Positions 23,239 through 47,751 of a stretch of 64,000 nt of DNA are shown here, one piece after another (the first letter of the stretch is position 1; every line of letters starts with the position of its first letter). The position numbers were made by a program, and so were the translations under genes. The DNA is from Halorientalis persicus (lineage in GTDB: Archaea; Halobacteriota; Halobacteria; Halobacteriales; Haloarculaceae), in assembly GCF_900110215.1 (NCBI RefSeq), contig NZ_FOCX01000003.1:62001-126000 (forward strand), written 5' to 3'. The notes under the pieces were generated by a model, which was not told where the DNA came from, made no database searches, and saw nothing but the letters and a program-made list of their open reading frames with translations.

Positions 23239-23364
23239 GAGCATCCGCGCGAACGGAGTGAGTGCGGTTCTCCGCGAGCGGCTCCGCCGCTCGCGCCTTT
23301 TTCACCCACGTTTTTCAAGGGGCGGTTCGCGCCGCTGGCGCGAACCCGACGCAGAAAAAGGTGG
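23239..23364. repeat. Palindromic intergenic element B
   Basis: The left end, gagcatccgcgcgaacggag, matches element A at 21486. Two perfect hairpins follow: gcgagcgg/ccgctcgc (23274-23294) and ggttcgcgcc-gct-ggcgcgaacc (23324-23346). Between them is cgcctttttcacccacgttt, whose first part recurs in element C at 63440, and the right end is agaaaaaggtgg. The element lies between azlC-side genes and sufU, ending about 44 bases before the sufU ATG. Confidence 0.65.
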
Positions 23365-23407: not shown

Positions 23408-23833
23408 ATGGTCGGCGGCTCCGATATGTACCGACAGCAGATCCTCGATCACTACAAGAGCCCGCGTAACTACGGGGAGATGGAGGATCCAACGTTCACA
23501 CACGTCGGCGAGAACCCGATGTGTGGCGACACCATCGAGATGCAGGTCCGCCTCGACGACGACGAGGAAGAGATCGAGTACGTCGCCTTCCAGGGCGATG
23601 GCTGTGCGATCTCACAGGCCTCGGCGTCGATGCTTTCCGAGAAACTCCAGGGGATGACGATCGAGGAACTCCGGGAACTGGATCGGGACGACGTAGTCGA
23701 GATGCTCGGCGTCGATATCTCACCGATGCGAATCAAGTGCGCCGTGCTGGCCGAGAAGGTGGCACAGGACGGCGCGGACATCTACTTCGGCGAACTGGAC
23801 GTGGACAAGACCACGACCGAAGACGACGAGTAG
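23408..23833 (+). CDS. sufU: SufU-type Fe-S cluster scaffold/sulfur-transfer protein
   Basis: A 141-residue IscU-fold protein. The three ligand cysteines are present in NPMCGDTIEM, FQGDGCAISQASASML and MRIKCAVLAEKV. The spacing between the second and third cysteine is long, as in SufU rather than IscU, and there is no LPPVK motif. It starts MVGGSDMYRQQILDHYKSPR. It accepts sulfur from SufS (20243-21487). The last 53 bases of its coding sequence are repeated exactly 210 bases downstream (see repeat entry). Confidence 0.92.
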   Translation: MVGGSDMYRQQILDHYKSPRNYGEMEDPTFTHVGENPMCGDTIEMQVRLDDDEEEIEYVAFQGDGCAISQASASMLSEKLQGMTIEELRELDRDDVVEMLGVDISPMRIKCAVLAEKVAQDGADIYFGELDVDKTTTEDDE

Positions 23834-24043
23834 CGCGGCGAGCGCAGCATCTTCTCGCGAGGCGAGACTGCGAGCAAGCGAGCAGTCGAGCCGTTGCGAG
23901 AAGGGGTTTTATACTAAATTTTGCGACGAGCGGTTCCAGAGCGAGCGGAGCGAGCGACGGAACCCGAGGACGTAAAATTTAGGCGTGACATCTACTTCGG
24001 CGAACTGGACGTGGACAAGACCACGACCGAAGACGACGACTGA
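23777..24043. repeat. Duplicated sufU 3' end enclosing a two-hairpin insert
   Basis: Positions 23777-23829 (the last codons of sufU) are repeated base for base at 23987-24039. The downstream copy is still readable as DIYFGELDVDKTTTEDDD and then TGA, but has no start. The 157 bases between copies contain two inverted-repeat structures: cttctcgc/gcgagaag (23851-23903) and ctaaatttt/aaaatttag (23914-23982). The second structure encloses ggttcc/ggaacc. The arrangement looks like a small palindromic element inserted with, or causing, a duplication of the gene end. Confidence 0.85.
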
Positions 24044-24085: not shown

Positions 24086-25117
24086 TCACTGTGACGGATA
24101 GCGGATCGTGACGGCGGTGCCGTCCTCGTCGTTCTCGACGACGGCGACGTGGCCGCCGACGCGTTCGACGGCCAGGCGGACCATCCACAGGCCCAGGCCG
24201 GTGCCGTGGACGAGCGGGGTGGTCTCGTCGTCGCGCAGCGCCAGCAGTTCGCTCTCGGGGATGGGCGGGCCGTCGTCGGTGACGGTGAGTTTGATCCAGG
24301 GTTCGTTCGGGGGGACGCCGACGGTGACGACGACCTCGGGGTCGTCGGCGTCGGCGTGCTGGATGGCGTTCTCACAGAGTTCCGTCAGGGCGAGTTCGAC
24401 CTCCGGGCGGATCGTGGCCGCGCCCTCGGAGGGGCGCAACATATGCACGTGGGCGTCCGGGTAGCGGTCGTTGAGGTCGCCCTCGACGCGTTCGAGGACG
24501 GTCGCGAGGTCGGTGGGTCGCCAGTCGTCCTCGGGCGAGAGGACCTGCCGGATGCGCTGGACCTTCTCGACGAGGCGGTCCCAGCGCCGGGCGATGTCCC
24601 GGACCTTCCGTGCGGAATCCTGCTCGGTCTCGTCGAGCGCGTCAGCGAGCAGGCGGGCGTGACTCAACACGACGGTCATGTCGTTGCGCAGGTTGTGCCG
24701 GAGCAGGCGGTTGAGGACGGTCGCCTGCCGGCGGCGTTGCTCGCGCATCGTGATGTCGACGAACAGAAACCGGGTGCCGACGACGCCGTCGCCGTCCGTT
24801 CGCGGGACGGCTCGCACGAGTGTGTGGACGACGGTCCCGTCGGCACACACCAACTTGCGTCGCTCTGTGACCGGATCGTCGTCGGCCGCCGGTCGTGCGT
24901 CGTCGGCCTCCAGCGCCGCCGCCGACTCGGGCGTGAACAGGTCCGCGAGCGGGCGGTCCTCCAGTGACTCGCGGTCGTAACCCAGCGTCTCGACGAACCG
25001 CTCGTTGCACACGTCGATCACCGCCTGCCCGTCCTCGGTTCGTGTGTGGACGTACATCACCGGCAGGTCTTCCAGCAGACACTGCCACTCCCCCGCATCA
25101 TCAGCCCCCTGAGACAT
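24086..25117 (-). CDS. PAS-domain sensor histidine kinase
   Basis: A 343-residue soluble kinase. One PAS domain (about 10-125, with VCNERFVETLGYDRESLEDR and FLFVDITMREQ) is followed by the phospho-acceptor helix NRLLRHNLRNDMTVVLSHAR and a GHKL ATPase domain (N box ELCENAIQHADAD, G boxes TDDGPPIPE and GTGLGLWMVRLAVERVGG). There is no transmembrane segment, so the signal is intracellular. No receiver gene is adjacent, as is common for haloarchaeal kinases. ATG 25117 has an upstream GGTGA; a GTG 13 codons earlier is an alternative. Confidence 0.9.
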   Translation of the reverse strand: MSQGADDAGEWQCLLEDLPVMYVHTRTEDGQAVIDVCNERFVETLGYDRESLEDRPLADLFTPESAAALEADDARPAADDDPVTERRKLVCADGTVVHTLVRAVPRTDGDGVVGTRFLFVDITMREQRRRQATVLNRLLRHNLRNDMTVVLSHARLLADALDETEQDSARKVRDIARRWDRLVEKVQRIRQVLSPEDDWRPTDLATVLERVEGDLNDRYPDAHVHMLRPSEGAATIRPEVELALTELCENAIQHADADDPEVVVTVGVPPNEPWIKLTVTDDGPPIPESELLALRDDETTPLVHGTGLGLWMVRLAVERVGGHVAVVENDEDGTAVTIRYPSQ

Positions 25118-25304
25118 CGTCACCGGTTGTTTTCGAGTACTATTATTTGAAACCACCGCGGATTACGAGCCGTGTGGCACCGGTTTCGGTTGCGCCGGGC
25201 CCCGCGAGTTCGGCGGTTCATGTCATCCTAACTGAAGCATCGTGAGTCGGTCTCTCCAAGCGCGGTAACGGGGCGTTTTTCCTCGATGGCGGGCTACTAC
25301 GTCC

Positions 25305-43438: not shown

Positions 43439-43834
43439 CGGTGTCGGGGACCTCCGCGGGGGGAGTCGTCTAGTTTCTATTCCTGCATTTCCTATTTGGA
43501 ATTTACGATCCCACAGAACGAGGGTCGCCGCGGTCGAAGGGTCGCGCGCGACACGAGAAGAGTGATTTCGGGCCAGGAGGTGTATCAGTGCAGTCGCGAT
43601 GTCCGCCGAGTTACCTGTCGACACCGGTGACGATCCCCGCCTGCACACCGACCACGTCCGCCACCTGCCGCCTCGGCGCGGCGATCGCCGCTGCGACCGG
43701 CCTCCAACTGGGGGCCGACGACCCGGTGACCCACGGGACGACGCCGGCCGATCCTCCCGAGCGGCCGGTGAGCGCGCCGGTATCAAAACTACCATGGCCC
43801 CCGGCCGAGGAGTAGGGGGTATCAGGTGGTTTCG
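43439..43834. other. Intergenic region without a convincing gene
   Basis: A 396-base stretch between the exported protein and the class V aminotransferase. The left 50 bases (tctagtttctattcctgcat) are A/T-rich and contain the minus-strand promoter. Two overlapping frames (43588-43815 and 43599-43838) read in different phases; one starts MSAELPVDTGDDPRLHTDHV, which looks haloarchaeal, but both become Arg/Pro-rich and neither is supported by composition. It could be a decayed gene with a frameshift. Confidence 0.4.
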
Positions 43835-44944
43835 GTGACCAAGAAACAGGAATACACGGGCGACTATCCCGACAAGACGCTGTATCTCCCGGGTCCGACG
43901 GAGGTCCGCGACGACGTGATCGAGGCGATGGCGGAACCGATGTTCGGCCACCGCATGGATCGGATGACGGACCTCTACACGACCATCGTGGAGGACACCA
44001 AGGAGTTCCTCGGCACCGACAACGAAGTGATCGTCCTCACGGCCTCGGGGACCGAGTTCTGGGAGGCCACGACGCTCAACCTCGTCGAGGACCGGATGCT
44101 GGTGCCGACCTCCGGCAGTTTCAGCGAGCGCCAGGCCAACGTGGCCGAACGGCTGGGCAAAGAGGTCGACCGCATCGAGTACGACTGGGGGCAGGCGATC
44201 AAGCCCGAGGACATCCGCGACGCCCTCGAATCGAGCGACGAGGGCTACGACGCCGTCGGCGTCGTGATGAACGAGACCTCGACGGGCGTTCGCAACCCCG
44301 TCGAGGAGATCGGCGACCTGCTGGGTGACTACCCGGACACCTACTTCGTCGTCGACGCCATCTCCTGTCTCGGCGGGGATCGGATCGACGTCGAGGCCCA
44401 CAACATCGACTGCATCTTCACCTCCACGCAGAAGGCCTTCGCCATGCCGCCCGGCCTGGCCGTCTGTACCGTCAGCGACGACGCGTACGAGCGCGAGGTC
44501 GAGAAGGGTGACTCCTCGTGGTACGGCGGCTTCCGGCGCTGTCTGGACTACTACGACCGGAAGGGCCAGACCCACTCGACCCCGGCGATCCCGATCATGC
44601 TCGCCTACCGCAAACAGATGAAACATATGCTGGAGGAAGGCCACGAGGCCCGCGACCAGCGCCACCGCGAGATGGCCGAGTACACCCGCGAGTGGGCCCG
44701 CGAGCACTTCGGTCTCTACCCCGAGGACGGCTACGAGTCCCAGACCGTCACCTGCGTCGAGAACACGCGGGGCATCGACGTGGCCGAGACCGTCGAGCAG
44801 GTGTCCGAGGAGTACGACATGGTCTTCTCCAGTGGCTACGGCGACATCTCCGAGGAGAGCTTCCGCATCGGGCACATGGGCGAACACACCGTCGAGAGCA
44901 TCAAGGAACTCACCGACGCCATCGAGGACGTGGCCGGGCTCTGA
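43835..44944 (+). CDS. Class V aminotransferase (serine/alanine-glyoxylate or phosphoserine type)
   Basis: A 369-residue PLP enzyme of the AGXT/serine-pyruvate group. LYLPGPTEVRDDVIEAM is the family start, SGTEFWEATTLNLV binds cofactor phosphate, FVVDAISCLGGDRID carries the ring-contacting Asp, and the PLP lysine is in FTSTQKAFAMPPGLA. With serA and serB in the window it is a candidate for the transamination step of serine synthesis, since some archaeal class V enzymes do this; specificity is unproven. GTG 43835 has AGGTGG six bases upstream; GTG 43826 is possible. The last 16 codons have a second copy at 45567-45617. Confidence 0.86.
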   Translation: MTKKQEYTGDYPDKTLYLPGPTEVRDDVIEAMAEPMFGHRMDRMTDLYTTIVEDTKEFLGTDNEVIVLTASGTEFWEATTLNLVEDRMLVPTSGSFSERQANVAERLGKEVDRIEYDWGQAIKPEDIRDALESSDEGYDAVGVVMNETSTGVRNPVEEIGDLLGDYPDTYFVVDAISCLGGDRIDVEAHNIDCIFTSTQKAFAMPPGLAVCTVSDDAYEREVEKGDSSWYGGFRRCLDYYDRKGQTHSTPAIPIMLAYRKQMKHMLEEGHEARDQRHREMAEYTREWAREHFGLYPEDGYESQTVTCVENTRGIDVAETVEQVSEEYDMVFSSGYGDISEESFRIGHMGEHTVESIKELTDAIEDVAGL

Positions 44945-44959
44945 GCGAGCGTCGAACAA

Positions 44960-45345
44960 TCACACTACGTCAGTCGGCTGTTTTGCACCGTGGTCGAGTA
45001 GTTCGCTGTCGAACGAGACCAGCGTCGCGTCGACGGCCTCGGCTGCTGCGAGGACGAGCGCGTCCATCGGGTAGAGGAGTGTTTCCGACTGGAGTCGGTT
45101 CGCTTCGAGCATATCCGATGCGTCCGGAAACGTGACTGTCGTCCGAGTGGTAATACGGTTCTCGATCCGGTCGATCCGATCCCGTTCGAACTGTTTTTTC
45201 TTCGAGAGGACACTCCGGAGTTCCATCAAATTCAGCACCGAGACGTACGGTTCGTCGGCTTCGTTGAGGAGATCGATAGCCAGATCGGATCGTTCGGTAT
45301 CGTTCGTCACTGCGGCCACGAGGACGTTCGTGTCGAGAAGTAACT

Positions 45346-45349
<4 letters not shown>
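44960..45349 (-). CDS. vapC: PIN-domain toxin VapC
   Basis: A 129-residue PIN RNase. The four acidic active-site residues are Asp6 (KLLLDTNVL), Glu43 (LNLMELRSV), Asp96 (LYPMDALVLAAAE) and Asp114 (LVSFDSELL). VapC toxins cleave structured RNA, often tRNA or rRNA. Its start overlaps the antitoxin stop by four bases. The stop lies only 15 bases from the aminotransferase stop, and the whole module is enclosed by two copies of the aminotransferase 3' end. Confidence 0.88.

Positions 45350-47751
<2,402 letters not shown>

Follow-up and report, generated by a model that had tools for sequence, protein, structure and literature searches.

Why does the 3' end of sufU occur twice in Halorientalis persicus, on either side of two hairpins? 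The window, meaning the whole stretch of 64,000 nucleotides that was analysed, belongs to a genome of 4.87 Mb in the Halorientalis group (G000). The sufU coding sequence lies at 23408-23833 on the plus strand, including its stop codon TAG, and its translation matches Pfam NifU_N (E 9e-30). The final 53 nt ahead of the stop codon region (copy 1, 23777-23829) recur at 23987-24039 (copy 2), on the same strand. An earlier, sequence-only reading of this DNA had reported the repeat as exact, and the identity of 100% over 53 nt was reproduced, with a start-to-start distance of 210 nt. An exact 53-mer present twice inside 1 kb cannot be due to chance. Copy 2 has the codon phase of copy 1 and is followed by CTGA, so that the frame does run to a stop (TGA, 24041-24043) as had been claimed. 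The stop regions themselves are unlike, being GAG TAG for copy 1 and GAC TGA for copy 2.

The 157-nt spacer between the copies is non-coding. The two inverted repeats that had been described in it, with arms of 8 bp and 9 bp, were located by folding and by inspection of the sequence. Hairpin 1 (h1, 23851-23903) has outer arms at 23851-23858 and 23896-23903 (8 bp), and inner arms at 23866-23871 and 23882-23887. Hairpin 2 (h2, 23914-23982) is a palindromic element with inverted ends CTAAATTTT and AAAATTTAG, 9-bp arms at 23914-23922 and 23974-23982, and relatives dispersed elsewhere. Between them is a T-rich stretch, TTTTATA (23907-23913), kept across the family as TTTTATACTAAATTTT, and a filler of 4 nt, GCGT (23983-23986), joins h2 to copy 2; all four features are given on the plus strand. 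When the spacer is folded as RNA, it has z = -5.4 against shuffles. An Rfam search of the sufU region gave no match. Beyond copy 2 there is a PAS/histidine-kinase gene (24086-25156, minus strand; Pfam HATPase_c and PAS), convergent with sufU. A further palindrome, with the ends CCACGTTTTT and AAAAAGGTGG of a sister family described below, is found directly upstream of sufU, at 23306-23364.

The sister species Halorientalis regularis TNN28 (G002) has the same arrangement with diverged hairpin loops, which refutes an artefact of this assembly alone. Copies of the sufU end around a palindrome of the h2 kind are also present in G131, G060 and G061, and the total is 5 genomes with the duplication among 140 genomes of the family with a sufU match. 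The position of the kinase gene as right-hand neighbour provides a shared flank for comparison. Two genomes, G003 and G005, have this neighbouring gene and lack the unit, thus supplying the empty site that had been predicted, and G010 is likewise without it. G058 has a complete h1 at sufU and neither h2 nor copy 2, so some of the unit-free sites may once have had the unit and lost it when copies recombined; the polarity at sufU is uncertain. On account of the same genome, fold-back synthesis of h1 was dropped as an explanation; it had been considered since the right arm of h1 in G061 complements the native flank.

The arrangement of gene end, hairpin and gene end is real and recurrent, and is wider than the sequence-only reading had claimed, extending to other genes and other genera. 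In G000 itself a small membrane protein gene has a duplicated end of 96 nt with 89.6% identity. The end of the Spt5 gene (spt5) is duplicated around a palindrome in G138. Duplicated ends were also found for an ornithine cyclodeaminase gene of the TIGR00300/ArgZ type (G006), a PINA-like ATPase gene (G059), a heme-binding protein gene (G108), the gene of an unnamed protein in G021, with apparently the same protein in G062, and, in another family, the 4a-hydroxytetrahydrobiopterin dehydratase gene (G040). Between the two ornithine cyclodeaminase copies (L060, G006:C1 at about 773,600) there is a palindrome of the AAAAAGGTGG family, and copy 2 continues directly into a palindrome of the 4-T class seen at sufU. 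Repetition can go much further, and one locus in G021 (L223, G021:C1:2702800-2706800) contains about ten near-identical tandem units of 171 bp, each made up of a gene 3' end and both hairpins.

As a control, the C-terminus of EF-2 was examined, and gave no convincing extra copy; second matches had E > 0.3, except in the fragmented assembly G019, where two matches of identical score lie on different contigs. In a sample of 1.25 Mb, consisting of the window and stretches of G000, G003, G006, G061 and G108, sufU and argF were the only gene-end repeats that span an element.

It is worth adding that the window has a second gene-end duplication of the same form around a different cargo (44895-45621). 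Here an aminotransferase-like gene (43826-44944) has its final 54 nt repeated with 93% identity at 45568-45621. What separates the copies is apparently a toxin/antitoxin pair of the PIN-domain type, on the minus strand at 44960-45349 and upstream.

The sequence-only reading had compared the sufU unit with the duplications that integrases leave at gene ends. The resemblance is genuine in that the gene 3' end is restored upstream and a second copy is displaced downstream, and the unit-free species and the dispersed palindromes agree with it. The rest of the analogy was not supported. A Pfam scan around sufU found no integrase and no reverse transcriptase among ten neighbouring proteins, and the spacer does not code for one. 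There is no fixed att core: each locus involves a different gene, and the repeat, which has the sequence of that gene in its own host, is 39-96 nt long with a variable start. Many different genes are affected, and the units form tandem arrays, as at argF. A replication slip around a hairpin, which had been offered as the alternative, fits better.

The position of the breakpoints is the constant feature of these loci. In all 31 extra argF copies, and in all tabulated copies of other genes, the second copy starts 0-9 nt past the outer end of the h2 palindrome, which at these breakpoints has the form [N5]T4-5-hairpin-A4-5[N5']. The start of the copy inside the gene is variable, with 39-96 nt of gene end repeated, and the junctions have a filler of a few nucleotides and microhomology that is weak at best.

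Palindromes with the ends CTAAATTTT and AAAATTTAG are found at many gene ends in G000 and in all eight genomes of the genus, which bears out the suggestion that the same kind of insert would be present at other gene ends. A scan of genome contigs with the strict element pattern matched a single record, from H. regularis. The usual order is gene, h1, T-run, h2. In many members the stop codon of a convergent gene is provided by, or abuts on, the h2 end, as read by eye. The sister family, with ends CCACGTTTTT and AAAAAGGTGG, occurs upstream of sufU and in argF loci. Because Haloferax terminates transcription at T-stretches, some of them accompanied by hairpins (PMC7237163), a terminator role for these gene-end elements is likely. 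Several h2 palindromes (L046, L057, L066, L079, L081, L084 and others) contain an extra conserved pair of hairpins inside, AGTAGTGCGGGACCG..CGGTCCCGCATACCGTGCGAACGGGCG.., as if one hairpin had been inserted into another.

These observations might suggest a mobile miniature element, in which h2, together with h1, is non-autonomous and inserts beside stop codons by means of a putative recombinase, generating a target duplication of variable and unusual length. The inverted ends of h2, its dispersed copies at many gene ends and the absence of the sufU unit in G003 and G005 would all be expected. So would a further result: strict 4-T palindromes number only 8 in 146 genomes, and 6 of the 8 lie between gene-end copies, as an active subfamily would give, while of the roughly 38 5-T palindromes in the genus none is so placed (Fisher p 3e-6, rising to 0.0008 once related loci are collapsed; the two classes were taken from different genome sets, and these values are a guide only). 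However, this association comes in part from related sufU loci, most palindromes of the h2 family have no flanking duplication, and at argF it is the unit itself that is tandemly repeated. To our knowledge no transposase fits target duplications of 39-96 nt and variable length. We consider an origin by transposition unlikely.

The closest known mobile elements are the SMRs and MITEs of Haloquadratum walsbyi, which are dispersed inverted-repeat elements of about 100 nt with no transposase, and the mobilisation of SMRs was termed enigmatic (PMC3119063). The palindromes described here are similarly short and dispersed, with inverted terminal repeats and no transposase gene. SMRs leave the target unduplicated, and their preferred insertion sites are the palindromes of other elements (PMC3119063), whereas the elements at sufU, the membrane protein gene, spt5 and other genes are flanked by duplications of the gene end, 39-96 nt long, and such repeated gene ends can form arrays.

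The gene whose end is most commonly duplicated is argF, encoding ornithine carbamoyltransferase. The argF C-terminus gives at least two matches in 42 of 140 genomes, and at the DNA level 31 extra copies were verified in 24 genomes; some of the matches in the other genomes could be paralogues. Arrays of three occur in G000, G002, G021, G125 and G060. Over a stretch of 36 nt, copy 2 shares 96.6% of its positions with copy 1 from the same genome, against 81% when copies 2 of different genomes are compared. In 20.5 of the 24 genomes, counting ties as half, the sequence nearest to copy 2 is the copy 1 beside it, and none of 10,000 permutations gave a within-genome likeness as high (p below 1e-4). 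A greater likeness within genomes than between them characterises tandem duplication with concerted evolution. The junction GGTGG-CTGCCGGACCAGG is common to species of many genera, and yet the copies track each species' own gene. The argF copies are therefore homogenised inside each genome, and gene conversion is the simplest way to account for it.

Such homogenisation had not been anticipated by the sequence-only reading. That reading had named diverged copies present in all relatives as the finding that would count against it; in fact some relatives lack the unit, and the copies are kept alike within genomes.

Two further observations concern the spacing and the loops. In adjoining argF units of G000 (L122, G000:C50) and G021 (L254), the gene end and hairpin arms are alike and the h2 loops unlike, and the h2 loop therefore appears to evolve far more rapidly than the remainder of the unit. 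In G008 (L228, G008:C1, about 1,474,000-1,475,300) a second, diverged argF 3' end is located about 1 kb beyond the first, with toxin-antitoxin-like genes between them, as read by eye, and in G119, which belongs to that genus, the argF copies are spaced similarly.

A layout in which a gene 3' end and a hairpin are followed by a partial copy downstream is also that of diversity-generating retroelements, where it forms the VR/TR pair. This candidate was rejected: there is no reverse transcriptase among the ten neighbours of sufU, A is involved in 9 of 29 argF differences, and the sufU copies are identical. The genes concerned here are, by contrast, conserved housekeeping genes.

The duplicated copies need no coding function, since the stop codon has been lost from argF copies 2 and 3 of G002. 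The first codon of argF copy 2 also drifts in several species. A translated role for copy 2, using the GTG in AAAAAGGTGG as start, was inconsistent across loci and was discarded.

Copy 2 might instead be selected as a functional device, for example if the transcript of the convergent gene were antisense to the end of its neighbour's mRNA. The sufU and kinase genes are convergent, with copy 2 within the downstream region of the kinase gene, and the argF copy 2 stays like copy 1 across family-level divergence, with a single junction common to species of many genera. The lost stop codons in G002 and the drifting first codon imply, however, that conversion can explain the conservation of the copies without selection, and for the membrane protein gene of G000 the next gene, read by eye, is apparently co-directional rather than convergent. 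Selection of copy 2 appears improbable. A more specific form, a maintained regulatory device in which the 3' UTR of the convergent transcript would be antisense to the neighbour's mRNA end and conversion would keep the match, has to be regarded as more improbable still.

The differences between the argF copies fall mainly at third codon positions (24 of 30, p 2e-7, with the junction codons of G021 removed by hand), as they would if the copies were two functional alleles. This raises the possibility that DNA from a related strain replaced the 3' part of the gene: one side would have been exchanged by homologous recombination, the other joined illegitimately at the end of the terminator palindrome, and the resident gene end would have been left downstream. 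The hairpins downstream of the two copies are often unlike, and toxin-antitoxin-like genes lie between the copies at window positions 44895-45621 and at argF of G008, both of which the joining of two alleles would accommodate. Conversion from the functional copy accounts for the third-position bias equally well, though, and many genomes have copies with few differences or none. In addition, the join is at the palindrome end every time, which random illegitimate joining would not predict. We treat the joining of two alleles as a doubtful explanation.

The flanks of the repeats provide a further comparison. After the last copy, some loci have the same h1 or h1-h2 again, as predicted for tandem duplication of a whole unit. 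This is clear in G061, G002, G085 and the array of G021, and not in most loci. When the flank after the last copy was compared with that after copy 1, 6 of 34 loci lay at or above the 95% level of the null, with G061 and G002 the strongest, and in the other 28 the likeness of the two flanks did not exceed the null. At these 28 loci a simple tandem duplication therefore requires either later loss or a join of two alleles.

With moderate confidence we favour the hairpin slip, in which the palindrome at a gene end acts as a hot spot for duplication, either through a template switch directed backwards or through unequal recombination at its base, followed by conversion, expansion and loss; we give this reading a probability of about 0.5. 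It is supported by the constancy of the breakpoint with a variable start inside the gene, the arrays, the whole-unit repetition at some loci, the concerted evolution of argF with its differences mainly at third codon positions, the negative result for EF-2 and the lack of an integrase or reverse transcriptase among the ten neighbours. The process would start when a DNA strand terminates or stalls at the outer h2 end. Needing little homology or none, this strand would re-engage a short way back in the 3' end of the same gene, whether on its own chromosome, a sister or a related one. The gene end would then be copied again, to give gene-h1-h2-(gene 3' end)-flank. The upstream copy would be complete and the gene intact, which is why such duplications would survive at gene ends. 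Subsequently, gene conversion between adjacent copies would maintain their likeness, unequal crossover would produce arrays, and recombination between copies would remove units. The template switch, the strand and enzymes involved, and the role of conversion as homogeniser are what we infer from the products. Against the hot-spot model are the weak microhomology at the junctions and the unlike flanks at 28 of the 34 loci, and it leaves the recurrence at a few genes, such as argF and sufU, unaccounted for.

In haloarchaea, deletions mediated by repeats have been described (PMC3119063). Rearrangement provoked by palindromes through template switching has been reviewed (PMC7999016), and its breakpoint at a palindrome and short-range duplication resemble those seen here; the haloarchaeal loci differ in recurring at the same natural gene ends in numerous species, with products that stay alike over long periods. 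We found no description of the pattern in the open-access literature searched, and one may exist elsewhere.

What these loci represent is a reaction that recurs in nature at the palindromic gene-end elements of haloarchaea, comprising duplication, long-kept likeness, amplification and probably loss. It accounts for the gene fragments that are found downstream of intact genes, and provides a concrete test of whether the copies act as antisense. More broadly, it offers a natural system in polyploid archaea for studying how hairpins drive duplication and how gene conversion proceeds.
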